Of a stretch of 64,000 bases of DNA, positions 18,514-63,280 are shown in pieces. The stretch's first letter is position 1. Each line of letters opens with the position of its first letter. Source of the stretch: Thermanaerothrix daxensis (GTDB taxonomy: Bacteria > Chloroflexota > Anaerolineae > Anaerolineales > Anaerolineaceae); NCBI RefSeq assembly GCF_001306145.1, contig NZ_LGKO01000002.1:124001-188000 (forward strand), given 5' to 3'. A program made the translations under genes and the position numbers. Below the pieces are notes generated by a model. That model saw only the letters and a program-made list of their open reading frames with translations. It was not told where the DNA came from and did not search any database.

Positions 18514-18539
18514 CACTTTAGTTTGACAACCTCATAACA

Positions 18540-18760
18540 CCTGCCGGGTGCCAGTCTTCCCGGATGGAGCGGCTTAAAGGCGAAACCGGTGCAAGTCCGG
18601 TGCTGTCCCGCAGCTGTAAGGAGGGCGAATGCCCTCCAAGCCAGATCGCCCGCCCGGTAGGGGTTCGCCAACCTCTCGCGGAAAGGAGGTGGGAACCGAT
18701 GCTCTGGCGGCCTTGGTCTCTCACCTCCCTGTCCTCACGACAGGGAGGTTCCGTTTTGAT
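18540..18760 (+). promoter_or_regulatory. Cobalamin riboswitch with transcription-attenuator expression platform
   Basis: Aptamer about 18542-18659: P1 TGCCGGG (18542-18548) with CCCGGTA (18653-18659), core GGTGCAAGTCCGGTGCTGTC and CCCGCAGCTGTAA, and the B12 box GCCAGATCGCCCGCC (about 18640-18654). Expression platform: terminator ACCTCCCTGTC (18723-18733) with GACAGGGAGGT (18739-18749), then TCCGTTTT. The competing antiterminator pairs GGAGGTGGGA (18685-18694) with TCTCACCTCC (18719-18728), which would destroy the terminator stem. Ligand-bound RNA should favour termination, so uptake genes are off when B12 is plentiful. The logic is inferred; the aptamer match is strong. Confidence 0.92.
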
Positions 18761-38908: not shown

Positions 38909-38939
38909 AAAGCCAGGTTTTCTAACACCCCTAGGAAGT

Positions 38940-39240
38940 GAATGGCGCTGACGGAGGAAAGTAAGTCGGCGGAACGCGCCAGAGAGGCTGGGGCAAGGGC
39001 TGCGACCCCGGCTCGCCGGAAACCGACCGAAGTTCCCTCCTGAGCCGCTCAGGTGAAACCTGCCCAGAGATGGCACTGTACCGCGCAGGCAAGTAGTCTG
39101 AGCCGATTGGCCCCCGTTAATGGGCACACCAATCGCCACCCCCAGGTGGCCGTTGGGTTGAGCGGGCTGTGTCGCTTCACAGCCAATCAGGGTGGTACCG
39201 CGGGCATGTAACCCCGTCCCTGGCCGGGACGGGATTTTTA
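38940..39240 (+). promoter_or_regulatory. T-box leader (tRNA-Phe) controlling pheS-pheT
   Basis: Stem I can be drawn: GGAGG (38953-38957), left internal loop AAAGTAA with the AGUA element, GTCGG (38965-38969), pairing with CCGAC (39023-39027), right loop ending in the specifier TTC (39033-39035, a Phe codon), then CCTCC (39036-39040). The AGAGAGGCTGGGG element (about 38981-38993) is the usual stem I apical start. T-box AGGGTGGTACCGCGG at 39189-39203. Terminator CCCGTCCC (39213-39220)/GGGACGGG (39226-39233) with TTTTT. Uncharged tRNA-Phe (GAA) should bind the specifier and T-box and allow read-through. This fills the gap between holB and pheS. Confidence 0.92.
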
Positions 39241-51556: not shown

Positions 51557-52245
51557 AATCCATCCTCCACCACTAATCCATCCTGAATGCGGATGATGCG
51601 CTGGGTTTGCTGTGCCACCGTAGGATCGTGGGTGACGATGATCACGGTAGTGCCCAAATCACGGTTCAGGCGCAGGATCAGTTCCAGGATTTCTTTGCCC
51701 GATTTGGAATCCAGGTTTCCGGTGGGCTCATCGGCCAGGATGATGGCCGGATCGTTGACCAGGGCGCGGGCGATGGCCACCCGTTGTTGCTGGCCGCCGG
51801 AGAGCTCAGTCGGACGATGGTGCAGACGGTCGCCCAGCCCCACCGCCTCCAGCGCCTGACGCGCGCGCTCACGACGGTTGCCGTTGTAACCCGCGTAGCG
51901 CAGGGGCAGTTCCACGTTGGCGAGGGCGGTTGCCCGCGGCAGCAGGTTGAAGTTTTGAAACACAAACCCCACCTTGCGGTTGCGGATGCGCGCCAGATCG
52001 TCGTCTTTGAGACGTGAGACATCCTCGCCGTCCAGGATATAGGTGCCGCTGGTGGGTTTATCCAGGCAGCCCAGGATGTTCATCAGGGTAGATTTACCCG
52101 AGCCGGAAGGCCCCATGATGGCAACCACCTCACCACGACGGATGCGCACATCCACGCCGCGCAGAGCGTGCACCTCAATCTGCCCCATTTTGTAGACTTT
52201 AGTCAGGCCGTAGGCCTCGATGACCCAGTCCTGCTGTTCCACCAT
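51553..52245 (-). CDS. MacB/LolD-type ABC transporter ATPase
   Basis: 230 aa. Walker [10 protein letters not shown] (about residues 45-53), Q-loop [10 protein letters not shown], signature [16 protein letters not shown], Walker [14 protein letters not shown]-loop [12 protein letters not shown]. The [14 protein letters not shown] opening is typical of the MacB/LolD subgroup (mechanotransmission exporters). Two bases after the adaptor gene, and overlapping the permease start: strictly coupled. Confidence 0.95.
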
Positions 52246-52247
52246 GG

Positions 52248-53654
52248 CTATTGCTCTCGACTAAAAGGAGGTTGGCCGCCGAACGTCGTTGTCGTGGGCG
52301 GGTTCAAAATGACCAAATCGCCCTCGCGCAGGTCCCCTTCCAGCACCTGGCTGTAAGTCTCGGAAGTGGCGCCCAGGCGGATAGGCACGGGTGTTGGCAG
52401 GCCATTGCGCAGCACATAAACCACCCGCTGGCCCTCGCGCAGACGCACAGCGCGGTTGGGTACCAGCAAGACATCTTCCAATTGCTGAACCAGAATGGTC
52501 ACGGCTGCGGTCATACCGGGTTTAACCTGCTCATCGGCATCGTTCAATTCCAGAGTGACGTTGAAGTTAACCACACCATTGACCAGGGTGCCTACGCGCC
52601 CCACCTCAACCACCTTGGCGGCGTACTCCTTACCGGGGATGGCGTCGAAGGTCAGTTTGGCCGATTGGCCAACCCGAATGCGGTTGATGTCCACCTCCAG
52701 TACCTGGACCTCCACTAACAGGCGGCTGAGGTCGTCAAGGCGGAAGGAAACGGTGCCGGGGGCCACCTGATCCCCGACCTTGGAGCGCACCTCGGTAATC
52801 ACGCCTGTGAAAGGCGCCTCCAGGCGGGCCAATTTGAGGGTAGCTTCAAGCGCGGCAATGCGTGCCTGCGCAGCCTGAATATCCCGCGGGTCAGGGCCGT
52901 TTTTGAGCCGTTCCCACTCGCGCTGGGCGTCTTTGAGTCTGGCTTCTGCCAGCGCCACGTTCGCGTCGGCCTCAGCCACTTCCAGATCATTGGGTTTGCC
53001 CAGCAGGTAGTTCAAATTCGCCAGGGCACGGTCGCGAGCGCGTTGGGCGTTGGCCAGATTGGAAAGCGCCAGAGCCCGGCGCGGATCATCCTCAGGCAGG
53101 CTGGCAAAGCCTTCGTAAATTTCTTTCTGCTTTTCATACTCATTCTGTGCCAGGATGTAGTTGGCGCGTGCCTCATCAATGGTGGCCTGGCTGGCACGGG
53201 CGTAATCCTTGCTCTGACGACGCTTTTGCGCGTCTTCCAGGTTCTTCTGCGCCTGCACCAGGGCCAATTGTGCCTGTGCGCGTGCCAGATCGGAGTTGAG
53301 CAGTTCCTCCAGGTTGCGCCTGGCAGCGACCAGGTCGGCTTCGGCCAGGATGATGTTTTGCGCGAGCGAAGATTTTTCCAGTTCAGCCAGCACCTGCCCG
53401 GCGGTGACGGTATCGCCGACTGCCACGGTGATCTTGCCAATCTGACCGCTGGTTTGCCAGGCCAGGAGAGCGCTTTGATTGGCCCGCACACTGCCGGTGG
53501 CACCGACCGAGGCGGTCAGGTTACCGCGCTGGATGGGTTCGGTTTGAAAGGCGGTGTTGAGGGCTGCACGGGCATTTTGCCAGGCACGCAAGCCCAGAAA
53601 TGCCGCAGCAATGATGCCTGCAATGACCAGGTAGAGAATCCACTTCCGCTTCAT
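52248..53654 (-). CDS. MacA-like membrane-fusion/adaptor protein (HlyD family)
   Basis: 468 aa from ATG 53654 (GGGAGC upstream); an earlier start at 53699 lies outside the expected signal. N-terminal membrane anchor [20 protein letters not shown]. The split lipoyl domain starts [19 protein letters not shown] ... [16 protein letters not shown], then a long coiled-coil hairpin (about residues 90-240, unusually Ala/Gln/Arg-rich), the second lipoyl half [20 protein letters not shown], beta-barrel and membrane-proximal domains. In a phylum often considered monoderm-like, it would link the MacB permease to the outside or the cell wall. The partner outer-membrane TolC is not in the window. Confidence 0.9.
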
Positions 53655-53701
53655 AGCGTTGCTCCCTTGTTTCCCAGATCTACCTCTTATTATTACCACA
53701 A

Positions 53702-54778
53702 TTAATCAGCCTGGGCTGAGCCATTTACAGGGTTGGCGGTTTCGAGCGCCAGGATCTCACGGTAGGTGAGTGTCCACAGGCTGGAAAGGAAGACGTGCTC
53801 CCATCCTCCCAGCAGCCCCAGCGGTGCGAACACGATCAGGAAGAACAGCGGAAGCACCAAAATGAGGGTGGTGAGAACGGCCAGAGGTTGGGCCAGGAAC
53901 AGCGAAGTGAGACCGTAGATCAGCAAGCCGGGCAGGCCGGCCACAATCAAAGCCGGGAAGGCGAGGAGAAGGTAGAGGGGGATGAGCAGGAAGAGAAGAA
54001 TCAGCGTCACAATGCCCAACCCAATTCCCAGTCCAAACACGACCAGCCACATCAAGCCGACGTTCTTCCACTGGCGACGGATCAGGCCAAATGCCTGCCC
54101 CAGCGCGTCCAGGACGCCTCTCTCTTGCAGTACGCAGATTCGACGGGCCATTTCCCCGACGACATTGAGCACAACGCCAACCACGATGAGCAAAAGCACC
54201 AGCACCACGAGCGCCCCGATGCCGATGAGCACGGTGGGCACGGTCACCACGGGGGTTTGGGCAGAGGCACCGGCAATCAAAAGTCCAACCACCAGCAGCA
54301 TCAGTACCACCAGGAGAAAGATGGGCACGCCAAGCAGAAGGTCAATCAGGAAGAGGCGCCAGGCCGAACGCGACCACCCAAGGCGCCAGCCCTCGCGGAA
54401 GGGGAGCCGCAGGCCCCGGGCTTCGTAGTCATCCACCAGGCGGATCAGGGCGACCCGGCTGACATAAGCGGCTATGGTGAACAGAACCCCCACCAGCAAA
54501 AAGACGCACAGCAAGGCCATTCCAATGCCGATCAGAGTGGAAATCAACCGCTCTTCGGGAATCTGGGCCAGCGGGGCAAAGAAGTTCTCCAGCCAGCGCT
54601 CGAATTCACTGAGCGGGGGCTGACCGCTTTCACGGTAGGAAAACAGGTTGCTGAAGTTGCCCCCATTCCCGCCGCCTCCTGAGGTGGTTAGCGCCAGGAT
54701 CAGCCCAAAGAGCCAGAGTGTGCGGTAATTCCAGAGGATGTGCCAGGAACGCTTTAAGAGTTTGATCGGGTCTATCAT
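53702..54778 (-). CDS. Polytopic membrane protein of the sigma/efflux operon
   Basis: 358 aa, about seven membrane helices in a glycerophosphoryl-diester-like/DUF7544-like arrangement: an opening [20 protein letters not shown], paired long helices, the cytoplasmic loop [36 protein letters not shown] (two halves), and further helices. No catalytic motif recognised. It sits between the anti-sigma gene (18 nt gap) and the adaptor gene (47 nt gap). It may be an envelope-stress sensor partner or a transport accessory; this is inference from context. Confidence 0.75.
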
Positions 54779-54796
54779 GGTATCTCTCCTTTTTCA

Positions 54797-55432
54797 CTAA
54801 GCCAGAAGGGTTCCGTTGGTCTTACTCGGCACCGAGGGGGTGCGCGGGTGGCGCAGGAGGCAGAAAGCTAACCAGAGCCAGTAGAGGAAGATAATCCGCC
54901 CCTGCCAGGTCAGCACCCCCAACCAATCCCCCAACCAGCGGTCGGCTTGAAGTAGCCAGTGCAGTACCGGTTGCAAGCCGGGCGCAGGGGCTGCGCCTCC
55001 CAGAGCCGAGAGCAGGCCAACCCACAGGCTGTTGCTCCCGGCAGGGCGAAGGCCGGGCAGCAGATGGCTCAGCCAACCGCTGGACACTCCTAGTTGAAGC
55101 CATGCGTTCAGGATCGAGATGGCTTGCAAAAGGCCCCAGGCCAGCAGCAGGATCAGGGGCAGTGCCCAGGGAAGGAGATTGGGCGGTGTGGAGGCGACGG
55201 GAGTGCGGCGCGCGGGTAAGCGGAGCATGACCTGGGCGGTGAAGCGCTCGGAGGGCGTGAGGGGTAGGTCGGCGGGAAGATCACGTAACCAGGCGCTCAG
55301 GGCCTGGCGAGCGGCGAGTTCCTCCCGACACGCTGAGCATTCGGCCAGGTGGGCTTCCACCTTTCTGCGTTGGGAGGGGCGCAGTTCTCCATCCTGGTAG
55401 GCATCCAGCCAGGCAGTGACATGCTCGTTCAT
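54797..55432 (-). CDS. Anti-sigma factor with zinc-finger (zf-HC2) domain
   Basis: 211 aa. The N-terminal zinc-binding anti-sigma domain has the H-x3-C-x2-C motif HLAECSAC (residues about 28-35) after DAYQDGELRPSQRRKV. The rest has Pro-rich linker and probable membrane helices (LLPWALPLILLLAWGLLQAI, residues about 86-105, and RIIFLYWLWLAFCLL near the end), so it should hold the sigma factor at the membrane. Overlaps the sigma gene stop by ATGA. The partner relation is deduced from adjacency and domain type. Confidence 0.9.
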   Translation of the reverse strand: MNEHVTAWLDAYQDGELRPSQRRKVEAHLAECSACREELAARQALSAWLRDLPADLPLTPSERFTAQVMLRLPARRTPVASTPPNLLPWALPLILLLAWGLLQAISILNAWLQLGVSSGWLSHLLPGLRPAGSNSLWVGLLSALGGAAPAPGLQPVLHWLLQADRWLGDWLGVLTWQGRIIFLYWLWLAFCLLRHPRTPSVPSKTNGTLLA

Positions 55433-56001
55433 GAGGTTACCTCCTGAAGGGCGAGCCAGGGCGCCAGTTGCTCACGCAGACGTTGGCGGGCAGCACTGAG
55501 GCGCGACATCACCGTGCCAAGCGGAATATCCAGCGCCTCGGCGATCTCGCGGTAGGAAAGACCGCCGTATTCCCGGAGCACCAGCACGGCGCGGGTTGCC
55601 GGTGGCAGGGCCAGGATGGTCTGGCGCACCCGGATCTCGCGCTCTTTCTGTTCCAGGTGTGCCTGGGGGTCGGACTGTCCATCCCGCACGTCTGAGGTCG
55701 CATTGAGGCTGCGCAGGTGGCGCTCGCGGCGCAGTGTGTCCAGAGCCGCATTGATGGCAATGCGGTAAAGCCAGTTGCGCCAGGGCATGAGGGGGCGGTA
55801 GGTGTTAAGGTTCAACCAGGCTTTGATGAAAGCCTCCTGGGCGGCGTCTTCGGCCAGTTGCAGGTCTCCGCACAGGCGGTAAACCACCCCGACCACACCG
55901 GGGTGGTAGCGGCGCACCAGTTCGGCAAAGGCACTGCGATCCCCTTGCTGTGCCCGGTGCACCAGGTCCGCATCCTGTGCAGAGAGGGGGGTGATCTCCA
56001 T
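55429..56001 (-). CDS. ECF-type RNA polymerase sigma factor
   Basis: 190 aa from ATG 56001, preferred for an AAAGGG site; ATG 56034 (201 aa) has no Shine-Dalgarno. Region 2: RSAFAELVRRYHPGVVGVVYRLCGD, LAEDAAQEAFIKAWLNLNTYR. Region 4: ALPPATRAVLVLREYGGLSYREIAEALDIPLGTVMSRL (in two parts), binding the -35. No regions 1.1/3. First gene of an operon sigma / anti-sigma / membrane protein / adaptor / ATPase / permease, so it probably controls its own efflux module. It runs divergently from the surface-protein gene whose leader starts about 100 nt away. Confidence 0.92.
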   Translation of the reverse strand: MEITPLSAQDADLVHRAQQGDRSAFAELVRRYHPGVVGVVYRLCGDLQLAEDAAQEAFIKAWLNLNTYRPLMPWRNWLYRIAINAALDTLRRERHLRSLNATSDVRDGQSDPQAHLEQKEREIRVRQTILALPPATRAVLVLREYGGLSYREIAEALDIPLGTVMSRLSAARQRLREQLAPWLALQEVTS

Positions 56002-56149
56002 GCCTGACCCTTTCGGCTTGCCTGATAGCTTCATAGGATTAAACGAATATTACCCTCGATTTATTCAGGAGGATGGAGTCTGCGGGGATGTTGCCTGAAA
56101 AATCGGATTTTTTAATCCAATCTGCTTGCTTTTTGGGTGCCATCCCTTA

Positions 56150-56530
56150 ATAAAAGACCTTACAAAATTGTAAGGTCGGAAACCTGAGGATCGTACCGAT
56201 TAGCCCTGGAAAGGGGTGCAGATTAAGGCGCTGACTACATTGATAAACCGAATAGATAACTTGTTAGTTCTTCTAACGTTACGATCCCAACGAGACGTAG
56301 CGGAGTGGGTGCTTTGTATTGGCCCCGACTGCCGGAAGCCGGAAAGGGGGTGATGTAAAACGGGAAAAGGGAAGTATCAGGTTTTACCCCACCACTTCAA
56401 GTGCCTCTCAGGGAGGCGATGATCTGATAACTCCATTGGTCGTACGAAGTTATCAGGGAGCCAAAGTGAAACCGGCCCGTTGTATCGGATTGTTGTTTCA
56501 CCGGCGAAAAAAATTGGTCTGGAATCTAAA
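56150..56530 (+). other. Highly structured ~380-nt leader upstream of the surface protein gene
   Basis: The 512-nt gap between the sigma gene and the next start codon holds a chain of hairpins: GACCTTACAA/TTGTAAGGTC (56156-56177), GTTAG/CTAAC (56263-56277), GGTG-AT-GTAAAAC/GTTTTAC-CC-CACC (about 56349-56393), GCCTC/GAGGC (56403-56417), CTGATAACT/AGTTATCAG (56424-56456), GTGAAAC/GTTTCAC (56466-56501). No known riboswitch signature was recognised. No clear promoter is seen. It ends 17 nt before the AGGAGG of the surface-protein gene. It could be an unclassified regulatory RNA or cis-leader; the first palindrome might instead be a protein operator. Confidence 0.55.
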
Positions 56531-56546
56531 AATTAGGAGGTAAGCC

Positions 56547-56876
56547 ATGAAAGACAAGGTAAAGATCTTCCTCAGCCTGGCGCTGACGCTGATGCTCCTG
56601 GCGGGCTATGTAGGTGCCGCGCTGGCTTTTGACTCGGGAGGAACCCCCGAAGCCACAGGCCCTGATACCATTACCTGGACAGGGCAGGGAACCCAAAATG
56701 GTCGGTTGGAGGACGTAAAGTGTTCGTCAGACTACACCCCCTACCTGCACTGGATCCTCACCACCGATGGCGGTTCTGCAGACTCGGCAACCCTCTACCT
56801 TGGTGGCACGGGAAGTGGTACCTACTCTGGCAGCAATACAGGTGGGGCTTTCCATTTCGAGACACCTTATTTTTGA
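56547..56876 (+). CDS. Surface protein, N-terminal fragment (broken by frameshift)
   Basis: 109 aa as read. ATG 56547 with AGGAGG 9 nt upstream. Signal peptide (MKDKVKIFLSLALTLMLLAG, cleavage after about residue 27), then the start of a beta-rich domain (TWTGQGTQNGRLEDVKCSSDYTPYLHW). The frame ends FHFETPYF then TGA at 56874-56876, but dropping one T from the TTTTT run at 56870-56874 gives ...TPYFDLSGLTAYAG and continues in the frame of the next entry to 58041. The whole product would be 497 aa. So this is one gene interrupted by a +1 error, a homopolymer sequencing slip or real phase variation; the sequence cannot tell which. Confidence 0.8.
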   Translation: MKDKVKIFLSLALTLMLLAGYVGAALAFDSGGTPEATGPDTITWTGQGTQNGRLEDVKCSSDYTPYLHWILTTDGGSADSATLYLGGTGSGTYSGSNTGGAFHFETPYF

Positions 56877-58041
56877 TCTTAGCGGGCTTACGGCTTACGC
56901 GGGGATCAATGTTACCGATACGGGGGAAGGTGCCTGGATCTTGACCATCAGCCACGGCTGTCCGGGTAAACCGGACTACGAGAAACTGACCGTTTCTAAG
57001 ACCGTCACAACCTCCTACACCCGCACTCACAATTGGTCCATTGCGAAGTCGGTTGATCCGAGCGACATTTATCTCTACATGCCCGGTCAGGGGGCTAATA
57101 AGCCCAGCCAGGCGACCGCCACCTGGACCGTTGATGTGACCTACGAAGGCTATACCGACAGCGATTGGAACGTTTCCGGCACAATCACCATTAAGAACAC
57201 CGGCACGCTGGACGCCGTCATCACCGGTGTGGAGGATGTTCTGGCGGGCACTTCTATCAGCGTGAACTGCGGGGTGGGCTTCCCCTATACCCTTCCCAAG
57301 GGCAGCACGCTTACCTGCACTTACAGTGAAGATGGCTACGTTACGGGCTCTAATGTGGTCACCGTTACTACTGAGCGTGCGACTTATTCTGATGAGAAAC
57401 CCATCGTTTGGGGCGCTCCCACCAAGGAAATCAACAAGACCGTTACCATCAAGGATAATGGCACTGAACTGGGTACGGCCACTGCCCCGAATGACGCGCA
57501 GTTCAGCTACACAAAAACCTTTGAATGGGGAGATTATGGGGAGGCCAACTGCGGAGATCACACCTACGCCAATACCGCCAGCGTAATCAGTGATAATGGT
57601 GAGGTTCTCGCTTCGGCCACCGCTACGCTCACCGTTCATGTGCAATGCTACGTGTACGAAACCGCCTACGGCCAGGGGAGTGGCTCCATCTGCTTTATCC
57701 CCACCTTCTCCAACTGGGGCTGGACCACGCCCATTGCTCCTGGATCTACCACGGTCTTGGACCTGTGGGCCGGGGCTGGCCAGTGCGACACCGGCAAGGG
57801 CACCCCAGTCGGTAGCGTGGAGGTCACGTACTATAATGGTTACGTAACGGCATACTACAGTGTCTCCTCGCCTCACATCATCAAGGAAACCCACTTCTAC
57901 GCCGGCACTACGCCGTTCCCGAAGTTCGGTAAGAGCTACACGGTCGCGCCGGGACAGTACACCAATAAAGGGCCGTTCTCCGGTACGGTCTACGTGATCG
58001 CCCATGCGAAGGTCGGAATACCTGACCCGAACTTTCGGTAG
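56870..58041 (+). CDS. Surface protein, C-terminal fragment (same gene after frameshift)
   Basis: About 390 aa continuing the signal-bearing N-terminus. The open frame actually starts at ATG 56767, but residues before DLSGLTAYAG are out of phase with the real protein. Repeating Ig/DUF11-like segments: YTRTHNWSIAKSVDPSDIYLY, DVTYEGYTDSDWNVSGTITIKNTGTLDAVITGVEDVL, TKEINKTVTIKDNGTELGTA, HTYANTASVISDNGEVLAS. Thr/Ser-rich and with Cys pairs (SCGVGFPYTLPKGSTLTC). No LPXTG or membrane anchor at the end. Likely an exported cell-surface or adhesive protein. A 415-aa ORF lies opposite and is a shadow. Confidence 0.8.
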
Positions 58042-58054
58042 GGCTTAGGCCCCT

Positions 58055-58091
58055 GATCCCCGCGGGTGCGGCCTGCCGCGAGGATTGAAAC
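58055..58091 (+). repeat. Solitary CRISPR-repeat-like sequence
   Basis: 37 nt ending in GAGGATTGAAAC with a short inner palindrome GCGGC..GCCGC, the size and 3' motif of many thermophile CRISPR repeats. Only one copy is present; the next 40 nt show no second copy and there are no cas genes in the window. It lies 14 nt after the surface-protein stop. A chance resemblance cannot be excluded. Confidence 0.4.
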
Positions 58092-58115
58092 AGCCGGATT
58101 CCCCCTCATTGGGTG

Positions 58116-58162
58116 AGCCGGGCAGCGGTGAGCATGGATTGCCGCCGCTGCCCCGGCTTTTA
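58116..58162 (+). terminator. Terminator of the surface protein gene
   Basis: AGCCGGGCAGCGG (58116-58128), loop, CCGCTGCCCCGGCT (58145-58158), then TTTTAA: 13-bp stem with one bulged C. The rest of the gap up to the EamA gene end (58163-58388) is GC-rich, with a direct repeat CCATGGCGA (near 58256 and 58278), and shows no gene. Confidence 0.75.
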
Positions 58163-58388
58163 AAGCCGCGCCTTTCGCCGTTGTATCTTCGCCGGCGGCA
58201 GGGGGCAGCGACCGGAAACCCGCGGCCGCTCCGCGTTTGCACAGTGCGGTTTTGCCATGGCGATCTTGCCGGGCCCCCATGGCGAAGCCGGTTTGCTGTG
58301 GCGCCGGATCCCCCTCTGGCCTGAAGGGACGGACCTGGGAACCCGGCTGAGGAGCGGTTGCCCGGGGCACTTTTCGGGAGGGGGGCTC

Positions 58389-59315
58389 TCAGGGTTCGGA
58401 GAGGATTGTGGTGGCGTTGCGCGCCGGCTTCGGCGCGGGCGTGCTCAGGTTGACCAGGTAGATGCCGCTCAGCACGATCATCCCGCCCAGGATTTGGGTC
58501 AGGTTGAGCGGCTCACCCGCCAGGGGGATGGCCATCAGGGCGGTCAGCACGGGCTGGGCGACCATGGTGGGAGCAACCACTGCCGCGGGCAGGTGGCCCA
58601 GGGCATATGCCACCGAAAAGTAGCCGATCACCTGTGAAACCAGCCCGGCGCCCAAAAAAGCCAGGTAGGTGCGGGGGGCAAAGCCGATGAGCGGCTGGTG
58701 GGTGCCCAGGTTGATGCCCAGGAGCACCAACGAGGCAGTCAGGGTCACCAGGAAGATGTAAACCAGGGCCGCAAAGTGCTCACGGCCGCGCTGGGTGGTT
58801 AAAAAGTAGGCGGCGTAAAAAAGGCTGGAGCCCAGCGCAAGGAAGTTCCCCTGATTAAACTGGGGGCGGTAGATGAAATCGCTCCCCAGCACCAAGGTGG
58901 CGCCGCTCAGCGTCAGCGCCAGCCCCAGCCAAAAGCGCCCACCCAGCGCCTCACGCCAGATGAGGGCGGCAAAGAGCCCCACCCAGAGCGGTGCCAGGTT
59001 GTTCATCAGGGTTGCCGTGGCGATCCGGGTTTCGTGCAGGGCCGTGCTCCAGGTGGCATGATCCAGCGCGGTAAAGGCGCCTCCAAGGAGTGGCAGGAAG
59101 AGCCAGCGCCGGGCATTGCCAAGCCCCCGCATTTGCACTTCGTGGATGAAGAAGGGGGCGAAAACCGCCGAGGCGACGACCATGCGGTAGAAGGCGGTGA
59201 CCGTGCCGGGGGCATCGCTGGCCCAGCGCACGAAAAGTGAGGACAGGCTGAGCGCCAGAATGCCGCTCAAAAGGGCCAGATAAGGCAACCAAGGACGCCG
59301 CGGTTTCATCTCCAT
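58389..59315 (-). CDS. EamA/DMT-family transporter
   Basis: 308 aa from ATG 59315 (AGGATCGCT upstream). The open frame continues to 59456, overlapping the cyclase gene, but lacks a site there. Ten membrane helices in two EamA repeats: LALLSGILALSLSSLFVRWASDAPG, the DHATWSTALHETRIATATLMNNLAPLWVGLFAA stretch, and in the second half AFLGAGLVSQVIGYFSVAYALGHLPAAVVAPTMVAQPVLTALMAI (in parts). Family of drug/metabolite or amino-acid exporters; no substrate can be assigned. 80 nt after the cyclase stop. Confidence 0.92.
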   Translation of the reverse strand: MEMKPRRPWLPYLALLSGILALSLSSLFVRWASDAPGTVTAFYRMVVASAVFAPFFIHEVQMRGLGNARRWLFLPLLGGAFTALDHATWSTALHETRIATATLMNNLAPLWVGLFAALIWREALGGRFWLGLALTLSGATLVLGSDFIYRPQFNQGNFLALGSSLFYAAYFLTTQRGREHFAALVYIFLVTLTASLVLLGINLGTHQPLIGFAPRTYLAFLGAGLVSQVIGYFSVAYALGHLPAAVVAPTMVAQPVLTALMAIPLAGEPLNLTQILGGMIVLSGIYLVNLSTPAPKPARNATTILSEP

Positions 59316-59394
59316 AGCGATCCTGCGCGTAAAATGGCCATGATGGGCACGATTATACGCGGGCCAGGGGCATTGTGCCAGGGGGAAATGAAAA

Positions 59395-61617
59395 TCACAG
59401 CGTAAGGGCAGGCGCGTCTGCGGTAGGGGGCTTGGGCAGCAGCCGATAGACTTCAATGGGCTCCTGCTTGCCGGGCACCCGCTGCTGACCCAGGGACTGA
59501 AGATCGAAAGCCCGGGCGTGCTCGGCCAGGGCCGTGTGGGTGGCGTGGCTGATCAGCACGCCACTGCCCTGAATGAGGGTGCGGGTCAGGGCTTCGATGC
59601 GCTGGGTGGTGTTCACCGTGTCGCCGATGATGGTGTAATGCAGGCGGTCCCGCGCGCCCAGGCCGCCGGCGATCACCATGCCGGTGTGGATGCCAATCCC
59701 GGTGATCAGAGGTGGGTCCCCCCGCTCGACACGCTCGCGGTTGAGGGTTTCCAGGGCTTCCAGCATGCGTGCCGCGGCGCGGCAGGCGGCCAGCGCGCTC
59801 TTCTTGGGGCTGAGGATGCGCGGCAGGATGCCGAAAAATGCCAGCAGGGCATCCCCGTCGAATTTATTCACCACACCCCCCTCTTCAACGATGATCGGCA
59901 CCAACCGGTCGAAGTATTCGTTTAGCCATGCCAGCACGCGCGCCGGTTCCACCTGCTCGGAGAGGGTGGTAAACCCGCGGATGTCGGTCATCAAGACGGT
60001 GGCAACGGCTTCCTGACCTTCCAATCGCAGGTTGCCAGAAGCGAAGGTCTGGCGCAGTTGTTCGCGCACCTCCGGTGAGACGGTGCGCCCAAGCAAATCG
60101 CGGTAGATTGAGCCTTCTTGCAGACCGGCGATCATGGCGTTGAAGGCGTGCCCCAGGAGGGCCAGTTCGTCGTTGCCGGGCAGGTTGACTTTGATGTCCA
60201 GGTTTCCCTGGGCCACCTGGGCCGAGGCCTGCACCAATTGGGCCAGCGGGCGGGTGATGCGGTTGGCCAGGTAAACGCCGATCAGCACGACCAGGAGGAT
60301 GGCGATCATCACCAGGCCGAATACCTGCCAGCGGGTGGCCTGGCTGGTGCGGAGGACAAAGGTTTGGGGCAGGGCAATTCCCAAAATGCCGAGGTCTTCG
60401 CCGCCACGGGCTTCCCAGGGGCGGAGGAGTTCTCCGTAGGTGAGACTGCCCAGCCTCAGGGTGCGGCTCAGGCTCTGCTGATCCTGGTGAATCAGGACCT
60501 GGGCTACCTCATCCAGCCGCAGCGGGAGGGCCGGCTCGGCCTGATACAGCGTGGTGCTGAGCAGCTGGCCGTTAAAATCGTAGAAGGTGACTTCGCCGAA
60601 CAAGTCTTCCCGCATCTCACGCGCCAGGCTGGCGATGGACTTGCCGACCACGACCGCTCCCACGCGCTCATTCCCGGCGTTGAAGACCGGCCCGCTGACA
60701 AAGAAATAGCGGCCCCAGGGGGTAAGCAGACTGCCGGCAAATTTATCCCCCTGGGCGTCCACCAGCCCTTCCAGGACCTTCTGAACGAAACCGGCGGACT
60801 GAAACGTGGGGTCCTCGCGCACGGCCTGATAGGTGGCCGGGGGACTTCCTTCGGGGTGAACCAGCACCAGGGTGGCAAGCCCTTGGGGGTTGATCAGTGC
60901 CACGATTTCTTCGTTGCTGTTGATGGCCAGCGGGAGCGCGCGCAGGCGCAGGGCTTCCGCATCGTTGGCTTCCAGTGCGGCCGCTACCCCTTCACTGTTG
61001 GCGACCAGACGCAGGGTACCCAGCAGGCGATCCTCCTCGTTGGCCAGCCAATTCTGGCTTTGCTGGGCCGTGCTGATTAACTGATTCAAAAAGCGTTCCT
61101 GGACTGACTCAAAAACCACACGGGTAACCACGTACGCTGCAGCCAGGGTAAAGAGGACGGCCAGAATGAGGTAGGGTAAGATAATCTTCAGGCGCACCGG
61201 GATGCGCACCCCAGCCCGGCCTTGAGCCTGCAGGAGGCGCGCCGAGGGTTGGGTGGCGGCCCCCACGCCCTCGGCACGGCGCAGGGCTGCCTCGATCCAG
61301 CGCGGGGTAAAGGGCTGGCGCAGGAAGTTGTTCACGCCGTAAGCCCGGGCCTGCATCTCGCGTTGTAGGTCGGGGTGACGGCTGGTGAGGATGAGGCGCA
61401 CTTGCGGATGATCCTGGCGCACAAAGCGCAAAGTTTCCAACCAGGTTTCACCCGGAAAGTGAAGATCCAGAAATACCAGATCGGGGTCTATGGCGGCCCA
61501 CTGAGCGCGGATCTCATCCGGTTGGGCGCTGACCCATACCTGGTGGCCGCGGCTGCGCAAATAGCGCGCCAGCCCCTCACAAGCGCGGAGATCGTTTTGC
61601 AGCAGCAGGACGCGCAC
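59395..61617 (-). CDS. Receiver - sensor - HAMP - adenylate cyclase
   Basis: 740 aa. N-terminal receiver (1-120): phospho-acceptor D51 and T78 are present, but the acidic pocket is reduced to QND (residues 7-9) and the conserved Lys before Pro is Gln101 (FLRQPFT), so it is degenerate. Membrane helix about 144-168, extracytoplasmic sensor about 170-430 (Cache-like), second helix about 431-453, HAMP 454-505, then a class III cyclase: metal Asp D545 (LMTDIRGFTTLSEQ) and D589 (KFDGDALLAFFG), adenine-selecting Lys585 and Asp666, transition-state Asn669 and Arg673. A complete catalytic set, so cAMP is the expected product (cGMP not expected). Start ATG 61617. Confidence 0.93.
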   Translation of the reverse strand: MRVLLLQNDLRACEGLARYLRSRGHQVWVSAQPDEIRAQWAAIDPDLVFLDLHFPGETWLETLRFVRQDHPQVRLILTSRHPDLQREMQARAYGVNNFLRQPFTPRWIEAALRRAEGVGAATQPSARLLQAQGRAGVRIPVRLKIILPYLILAVLFTLAAAYVVTRVVFESVQERFLNQLISTAQQSQNWLANEEDRLLGTLRLVANSEGVAAALEANDAEALRLRALPLAINSNEEIVALINPQGLATLVLVHPEGSPPATYQAVREDPTFQSAGFVQKVLEGLVDAQGDKFAGSLLTPWGRYFFVSGPVFNAGNERVGAVVVGKSIASLAREMREDLFGEVTFYDFNGQLLSTTLYQAEPALPLRLDEVAQVLIHQDQQSLSRTLRLGSLTYGELLRPWEARGGEDLGILGIALPQTFVLRTSQATRWQVFGLVMIAILLVVLIGVYLANRITRPLAQLVQASAQVAQGNLDIKVNLPGNDELALLGHAFNAMIAGLQEGSIYRDLLGRTVSPEVREQLRQTFASGNLRLEGQEAVATVLMTDIRGFTTLSEQVEPARVLAWLNEYFDRLVPIIVEEGGVVNKFDGDALLAFFGILPRILSPKKSALAACRAAARMLEALETLNRERVERGDPPLITGIGIHTGMVIAGGLGARDRLHYTIIGDTVNTTQRIEALTRTLIQGSGVLISHATHTALAEHARAFDLQSLGQQRVPGKQEPIEVYRLLPKPPTADAPALTL

Positions 61618-61642
61618 GCCGTCTCCGGGAAGGGGGGTGGAA

Positions 61643-63280
61643 TCAGGTCAGGTATTCGCGCAGGTGGCGGCTACGGGTGGGATGACGTAACTTGCGCAGG
61701 GCTTTGGCTTCGATCTGGCGGATGCGCTCACGAGTCACATTGAAGTAGCGGCTCACTTCTTCAAGCGTGTGGTCCTTGCCGTCAATGAGGCCAAAGCGCA
61801 ATTCGAGCACCTGGCGCTCGCGTTCGGTCAGTGCTCCCAGCGCATTTTGCACCTGTTGGCGCAGCATCTCGCGGGCGGCGGCATCCATGGGCTCCAGGGC
61901 TTCTTCATCTTCAATGAAATCGCCCAATTGACTGCTTTCTTCATCACCGACCGGGCGCTCCAGGGAGACAGGCTCCTCAGCCGATTGGAGGATGCGCTGG
62001 ACTTTTGCCGTGGCGGCTTCCCACCGCCGCTGGAGTTCGGGGTCGAGGGGTTGATTACGTGAGCGGGCCAGGAGAATGGCCTGCACATCCTCTTCGCTGA
62101 GCAGTCCCGATTCCAGGGCCAGTTCCTCGTAGGTGGGTTCGCGCCCCAGTTGCTGGATCAGCGAGCGCTGAACGCGGAGTAGGCGGGTGATGGCCTCGAA
62201 GAGATGCACCGGAATGCGGATGGTGCGCGCTTGCTCAGCAATGTAGCGGCTGATGGATTGGCGAATCCACCAGGTGGCGTAGGTGCTGAACTTGTAACCC
62301 CGGGTGGCGTCGAATTTGGCGACGGCGCGCAGCAATCCCAGATTGCCTTCCTGGATCAGGTCGAGGAAGGAAACTCCCCGTCCCAGGTAGCGTTTGGCGA
62401 TGCTGACCACCAGGCGCAGGTTGGCGCGGATGAGCACGTTGTTGGCTTCTTCAGCGTTCTGGTGAATCTCCTCGCGCTGTGCGCGCAGGACCTCTTCATC
62501 GCTCAAATACGGGAAGAAGAAGGACAAATCGGGCAATTCCTTCTCGCTCTCCATGCGCTGGCTCAGGGCATTGGCTGCCTCTGCGGGGAGGAGGTAGAGA
62601 TCCAGGAAGAAGTTGAAGACATTGCGCACCAGCCCGTCCCAGAACGTATCGCGTCCCCAGGGGCCGCTATCCATGTAGGAGCGCACGTAGGAGGGGGATT
62701 TGCTCTGCCAGGTTTGGCGCAGCAAGCGTGCCTCGGCCAGCACCAGTTGTGGGTCGGGGGGCAGGGTATTCTCCAGGCGGGCAGCATCTTGCTTGACACG
62801 CTCCCACGAGGTGAGCAGATCCTCGCACACAGCCAGGAAGAGGGCTTTGTAGCGCCCGTTTCCATTACCGCGCGCGTCAATGTGCTTTTGCAGTGCATCC
62901 AGGCGTCGGTCGGCTTCGATGCAGGTGGCCAGGCGGAACTCGCTATCGGCATCCAGCAGACCAATCTGGCCGATTTCGCGTAGATAGAGCCGCACCGGGT
63001 CTTCTGAGAGTTCGGCGGCCAGCGCGGGATCCTCTAAAATCTCCAGCGGATCTTCCAGAGCCAAGTCCGACCAATCCTCGCTGGAAGGAGCGGCAATTGG
63101 TTCTTCTAACTCGGCGGCAAGCCCTTCTTCCTCGCCTTCACCCAGGACCTCGGGCAGTTCGTTTTCATCGGGGTGAGGGGCTGGCTGAGAGCCGATTGCC
63201 CCCGCCTGAGGCTTACGCGTGTTCTTGCCCTTGGAGGTTTGAGATCGCGTTCCAGAGGTGGTCTTTTTTGCCTGTGACAT
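61643..63280 (-). CDS. rpoD: Primary RNA polymerase sigma factor
   Basis: 545 aa from ATG 63280; the frame open to 63448 overlaps the promoter and dnaA end and is not used. Acidic, Lys-rich N-terminus, region 1.2 ([16 protein letters not shown], about residues 109-124), region 2 ([56 protein letters not shown]), region 3, and region 4 ([51 protein letters not shown], in parts). Together with the strong region 2.4/4.2 helices it is a group 1 sigma. No Shine-Dalgarno before ATG 63280, and the promoter places the transcription start at the ATG, so a leaderless mRNA is likely. Confidence 0.97.

Follow-up and report, generated by a model that had tools for sequence, protein, structure and literature searches.

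The gene that begins at position 56547 of the window (the whole 64,000-nucleotide stretch of Thermanaerothrix daxensis DNA that was analyzed) appears to encode a surface protein and is preceded by a long leader with many helices. Is this leader a single regulatory RNA, and if not, what are its parts? The first-pass annotation treated 56150-56530 as one chain of six hairpins and proposed that the chain could be a new riboswitch. The helices can be drawn as described there, including the inverted repeat and a GTAAAAC/GTTTTAC stem with a 2x2 internal loop. The statement there that the stretch lacks coding potential was not contradicted, although the plus strand of the leader contains reading frames of 45 amino acids (56216-56353) and 74 amino acids (56319-56543). 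The chain is three things: an inverted repeat, a 225-nt leader segment, and a predicted c-di-GMP-II aptamer. The best explanation of the locus, and a probable one, is that the aptamer acts as an ON switch for the surface-protein gene. Within this explanation, we infer that the aptamer still binds, which ligand it binds, the direction of the switch, and the output step.

The aptamer in the 3' third of the leader

Positions 56403-56486 (plus strand), which make up the 3' third of the chain, form a predicted c-di-GMP-II riboswitch aptamer, a compact 84-nt copy of a subtype found in this lineage. RF01786 matches these positions over the full length of the model (1-84), with 41.4 bits and an E-value of 1.8e-7. 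A scan with all Rfam models, the check named in the first-pass annotation, is blank here at default settings because 41.4 bits lies under the gathering cut-off of 53.5 bits; with an E-value threshold, the scan of the leader returns RF01786 (a further match of lower score, from the same clan, was left out). The gathering score was treated as reflecting curation, not a property of the RNA itself, and the sequence is therefore counted as a member of RF01786, with the caveat of a sub-gathering score. The annotation's claims of no known family and of a new one both give way to this sub-gathering match, whereas its suggestion of a riboswitch in the leader is supported for 56403-56486, where sequence and structure agree with a predicted riboswitch.

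A second line of evidence is provided by the model R1, which was built from 35 further aptamers, 3 from the T. daxensis genome and 32 from relatives, with the window copy excluded, and whose structure was written by hand from the pairing frequencies of their alignment, A1. When R1 is run over the window, this copy scores 49.7 bits (E 8.9e-13) and the next match 12.7 bits. Over 59 loci, R1 gives 72 matches, among which the window copy ranks 69th, many of the others being training sequences. Nothing else in 55900-56700 exceeds 3.5 bits when the full model is run without filters, so a second aptamer was not found in the leader. Matches to other Rfam families upstream of the aptamer are limited to two snoRNA matches (E 8.4 and 4.1). 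The variant model RF03169, whose cut-off is 40 bits, does not list the window copy at E<=1 in a search of the genome; two of the genome's other aptamers score above that cut-off.

Aptamer architecture and its departures

Aligned to R1, the window copy has a P1 of three pairs (56411-56413 with 56476-56478); the fourth modeled pair is A-G and non-standard. P2 is GGC/GCC (56415-56417 with 56460-56462) in both RF01786 and R1. P3 consists of eight perfect pairs between CTGATAAC (56424-56431) and GTTATCAG (56449-56456). The pseudoknot joins GGTCGT (56438-56443) to GTGA (56466-56469) and CC (56472-56473); it still pairs, and two of its pairs are G-U wobbles. The AAACCGG block is intact. In common with RF01786, the window copy keeps the blocks GGAGGCGAUGA, UUGG, GGAGCCA, and AACCGG, the order of P1 to P3, and the pseudoknot. 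The pseudoknot strands themselves differ: the RF01786 consensus is GGGCAC / GUGC..ACC, whereas the window copy has GGUCGU/GUGA, and the strands that are usual in the lineage (GGUCGC/GCGA) are changed on both sides at two pairs relative to the RF01786 model.

The window copy departs from RF01786 by one missing U, a score below the cut-off, and the lack of an overlapping terminator. The missing U, two positions ahead of the 3' strand of the pseudoknot, is present in 90 of 95 collected aptamers and in all 35 of A1; the window copy belongs to the five that lack it. Two further letters that are invariant in A1 are changed in the window copy, both within the pseudoknot. The accessory hairpin of most relatives is also absent.

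Covariation and distribution of the aptamer in relatives

The set of 95 aptamers was drawn from among the matches to RF01786 listed at E<=1e-3, with the addition of one weak match of the same genome at E<=1; the aptamers of L011 and L027 were left out, and those of L074 and L075 are identical and were counted twice. A1 is a hand-chosen subset of 35, again without the window copy. In these 35 aptamers, 95.8% of cells are paired. Changes on both sides of a pair occupy 161 cells, compared with 43.0 (sd 5.9) in shuffles, and the covariation score is 0.587, compared with 0.169 for shuffled and 0.072-0.128 for slid versions; because the structure was derived from this very alignment, all of these values lean in its favor. 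Counting the pairs with a two-sided change is less telling: there are 13, a number attained by 39 of 500 shuffles. All eight pairs of P3 change on both sides among the 35. The aptamer family of the lineage thus covaries strongly. Pseudoknot strands across the 95 aptamers are GGTCGC/GCGA in 82, GGACGC/GCGT in 4, and GGGCGC/GCGC in 1, compensated at one pair; by automatic reading, two of the other seven (the window copy apart) keep all four scored pairs and five do not.

The family is widespread in the lineage. At E<=1e-3, RF01786 matches 60 of 121 genomes (T. daxensis included) and none of 14 control genomes, whereas matches in only 5 of the 121 exceed its cut-off. RF01786, applied alone at its cut-off, therefore overlooks most of this lineage, in which c-di-GMP-II is in wide use. 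Much of this shortfall is made up by the variant model RF03169: with all Rfam models at gathering, seven of the nine loci scanned match, the exceptions being the window copy and L005. At the permissive threshold of E<=1, the T. daxensis genome has five matches, two of them in tandem, and 3 of the 14 control genomes also match. The tandem pair of this genome lies at G000:C5:44151-44407 on the minus strand. In relatives, as many as three aptamers occur in a row (L062:1353-1746, minus strand; L089:842-1172, plus strand), the first of the three in L089 being recognized by RF01786 only.

Several aptamers of this genome and its relatives pass RF03169 (c-di-GMP-II-GAG), with which they share the GGUCGC/GCGA pseudoknot; the RF03169 consensus is GCGAGACC, whereas most of the 95 lineage aptamers have GCGAAACC. 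Variant models GAG and GCG are named or used in genome scans in two papers (PMC12452182, PMC9943018), and aptamers of the lineage's kind may already be in the tables of these papers. Since the class and its variants are described, the aptamer in the window belongs to a known kind. A search of a limited literature collection returned no paper on the class II riboswitch with Chloroflexi or on a c-di-GMP riboswitch with Anaerolineae; with Chloroflexota, two papers were returned, PMC12452182 among them.

Excerpts of PMC9481103 describe two systems that resemble this leader in part. In Paraclostridium, tandem c-di-GMP-II aptamers, of the same class and with surface-protein targets, precede surface-anchor genes, and tandems also occur in the present lineage, but the window leader has one aptamer only. 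In Clostridioides difficile, a c-di-GMP-II aptamer and a group I ribozyme likewise share a long structured leader; here, in contrast, the aptamer is at the 3' end and 55900-56700 has no match to the group I intron (RF00028) at E<=10.

The surface-protein gene and its locus

The 5' part of the gene (56547-56876, plus strand) encodes 109 amino acids with a start that resembles a signal peptide by eye, and the remainder lies in another frame as a 424-aa ORF (56767-58041, plus strand). The frame break is at 56863-56876: the ORF with the start codon ends at 56876, homology begins at about 56869 in the other frame, and the junction is in a T run. The related gene chain of G093 (L050:4074-4718) has frame breaks too, by eye. 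The breaks in the two may be real, programmed, or sequencing errors.

The protein has no Pfam match at 1e-3 and no NCBIfam match at 1. Homologues at E<=1e-10 are present in 8 of 151 genomes with T. daxensis counted, that is, in 7 of 150 other related genomes, at 34-43% identity. The closest homologue, L037:4001-5161, is in a metagenome-assembled genome labeled Balneolaceae (47% identity; 46% over 420 columns, 56869 to 58035, by tblastn); it may reflect a transfer or a misbinned contig, and no c-di-GMP-II aptamer was found at its locus. In G031, which belongs to another genus, an 82.2-bit aptamer (L049:1481-1583) directly precedes an ORF (from 1709) with a homologous stretch. In G093, a tandem aptamer pair (L050:1436-1650) precedes a 677-aa ORF (from 2068), and the homologous stretches are in the second and third ORFs of the chain, from 4101 on. 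No aptamer was seen in the DNA examined around the homologues of the other five of the seven genomes, among which the contigs of G001, G092, and G127 end 133, 557, and about 500 nt upstream.

The same-genus genome G001 (L144) is collinear with the window by blastn at 52088-56066 (76%) and 58428-62767 (82%). Between these blocks, it has a 493-aa ORF that is antiporter-like by eye in place of 56067-58427. Since the leader and the gene are both absent from the collinear place in G001, the segment 56067-58427 appears to have come or gone as a unit.

Expression platform and proposed switch

In the lineage, an intrinsic terminator overlaps 78 of the 95 aptamers when at least 5 pairs are required and 76 when at least 6 are required. 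When the downstream sequence is shuffled, the count averages 6.8 and never exceeds 17. When it is exchanged between loci, the average is 58 and the maximum 66, which is below the real 78, the arms being alike across loci. The 3' strand of the aptamer is the 5' arm of the terminator in relatives; because the strand is shared, bound ligand would hold it and transcription would pass, which describes an ON switch. According to an excerpt of PMC11477304, the class II switches of C. difficile are transcriptional ON switches, except for one that controls translation.

At 17 of the 95 aptamers, the window copy among them, no overlapping terminator was found; the window copy has no terminator detected on the plus strand. 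Given this absence, translation or Rho-dependent termination would be the more likely output. A candidate OFF hairpin (56460-56505, plus strand) is present in the minimum free energy (MFE) fold of 56400-56560 and pairs GTGAAAC (56466-56472) with GTTTCAC (56495-56501). The hairpin consumes the 3' strands of the pseudoknot, P1, and P2; the sequence after it is a run of A rather than of T. It ends about 30 nt before the Shine-Dalgarno-like AGGAGGT (56535-56541, plus strand, before the ATG at 56547) and does not cover it. The Shine-Dalgarno sequence is predicted to be mostly paired when 56395-56575 or 56440-56575 is folded, and to a lesser extent in the long fold, its pairing being with local sequence.

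In the proposed switch, rising c-di-GMP would bind the pocket closed by P1 to P3 and the GGTCGT/GTGA..CC pseudoknot. In the bound aptamer, the GTGAAACCGGCC strand would be held in place, which would prevent the alternative hairpin at 56460-56505, and with the hairpin blocked, expression of the downstream secreted surface protein would be favored. Upstream, 56157-56176 would probably serve as an operator for a transcription factor, and 56178-56402 would be leader. The surface protein is thus probably under a c-di-GMP signal.

Taken together, the missing terminator, the missing U, and the frame break in the gene mean that the window copy may work differently or be decaying. A decaying relic that no longer works, beside a broken gene, would account for these three features as well as for the low score within the lineage (rank 69 of 72) and a P1 of just three pairs. 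Every pseudoknot pair is nevertheless still allowed, the eight pairs of P3 are perfect, and the AAACCGG block is intact; the frame break, which lies within a run of T, may be a sequencing error. A relic is on this balance unlikely, though not negligibly so, and a predicted ON switch is the preferred reading of the aptamer.

Folding of the leader

The stability of the whole stretch is just modestly above that of dinucleotide shuffles. Folding of 56120-56560 gives a z of -1.86, with 4 of 100 shuffles equally stable, and 56154-56401 gives -1.82, with 6 of 200. When the leader is folded in pieces, with 150 shuffles per piece, the inverted repeat alone (56155-56178) is the sole strong outlier (z -7.6), followed by 56186-56290 (z -2.0), which contains an 8-bp helix, GGATCGTA/TACGATCC. 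The GTAAAAC stem (56349-56393, plus strand) consists of GTAAAAC (56355-56361) and GTTTTAC (56381-56387) nested in GGTG (56349-56352) and CACC (56390-56393), with AT opposite CC as the 2x2 internal loop. The piece that contains this stem, 56300-56401, has a z of -0.47 and therefore folds no better than chance, and its MFE fold has a different stem. For the aptamer, the plus-strand z of -1.79 comes from folding that ignores the pseudoknot. A single new riboswitch or RNA family spanning the chain, as first proposed, would fit several consecutive helices with a z of -1.8 to -1.9, but it can hardly be credited when c-di-GMP-II accounts for the 3' part and the hairpin at the 5' end is an inverted repeat that recurs in varied gene contexts.

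Some minus-strand folds are more unusual than those of the plus strand: z is -3.84 for 56403-56486, and -3.7 compared with -1.0 for 56403-56546. For 56154-56401, the minus strand (z -1.39) is similar to the plus strand. These folds, together with a terminator-like arrangement of the inverted repeat and T-rich sequence on the minus strand (1 found, 1.0 expected), could suggest that the leader belongs to the divergent gene for an ECF sigma factor. That assignment is extremely improbable: G001 keeps the ECF gene (77% protein identity), yet the DNA similarity on that side stops at 56066, which lies 32 nt ahead of the start codon of this gene, and the aptamer is on the plus strand.

The inverted repeat and the 225-nt segment

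The 5' end of the chain is a 20-bp inverted repeat, ACCTTACA-N4-TGTAAGGT (56157-56176), a probable DNA operator. As GACCTTACAA/TTGTAAGGTC (56156-56177), it folds into a 9-bp stem with a 4-nt loop at its MFE. The helix that the first-pass annotation saw in its 10-bp palindrome is present but is more plausibly a DNA site that recurs. In 400 genomes of the order, a search for the pattern ACCTTACA-N4-TGTAAGGT returns 17 sites in 16 genomes, compared with 0 for a reversed-pattern control. A DNA search with 56150-56402 likewise matches 36 of the 400 genomes (T. daxensis included), mostly at the inverted repeat. The sites occur in varied gene contexts (loci L155, L157, and L159-L171). At 8 of the 15 other loci, a TATAAT-like hexamer (5 or 6 matches, counted with no shuffled control) lies 1-12 nt before the repeat on one strand; six of these eight have, by eye, a gene onwards in the direction of the hexamer, several with a start like that of a secreted protein. 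At 4 of the 15, the stems are 6-11 bp longer and resemble hairpins or terminators. The shorter pattern CTTAC-N6-GTAAG occurs in this genome at the window site and once on C2. A good promoter was not found at the window locus, and the operator reading is therefore likely, not proven; on the sequence evidence, 56157-56176 is more likely a DNA operator than an RNA element. No paper containing the inverted-repeat strings was found in a literature search of a limited collection. The recurring site is a lead to a regulator.

Between the inverted repeat and the aptamer is the 225-nt leader segment (56178-56402, plus strand), which contains the GTAAAAC/GTTTTAC stem. The homologous leaders by which the first-pass annotation would have judged covariation were not detected for this segment in 61 and 400 genomes, plasmids, or phages. 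In the 61 genomes, the DNA search found, besides the window itself, a single match of 25 nt, to 56095-56118, which covers the start of an ORF that is unrelated. In the 400 genomes, there are at least 11 short matches outside the inverted repeat among the matches listed; two were read, and both are in long ORFs. Plasmids and phages gave no match to the leader.

The length of the segment raises the possibility of a second, undescribed sensor at 56178-56402, which with the c-di-GMP-II aptamer would form a two-input leader. The window aptamer has no promoter-like pair within 120 nt upstream, whereas 56 of the 95 aptamers do (shuffled mean 20), and so its 5' leader is long; the GGATCGTA/TACGATCC helix adds local structure, and two-input tandem RNA devices are described in an excerpt of PMC9481103. 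Against these points, the segment is a single sequence with no homologue detected and no Rfam match, and 56300-56401 folds no better than chance, which makes a second sensor quite improbable. A fuller proposal would combine three layers: an operator where the transcript starts, a 225-nt RNA sensor of undescribed kind, and a terminator-free c-di-GMP-II aptamer. If this proposal were true, the surface protein would be made only when two signals agree; we regard it as very improbable. The single c-di-GMP-II switch remains the preferred reading of the leader.

Other structured RNAs are present in the window. A group I intron (RF00028, 377-1049) is inside the 23S rRNA gene and is accompanied by a 161-aa ORF (538-1023) that is LAGLIDADG-like by eye. 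A cobalamin riboswitch (18529-18671) and a T-box leader (38939-39224) both score over their Rfam cut-offs.
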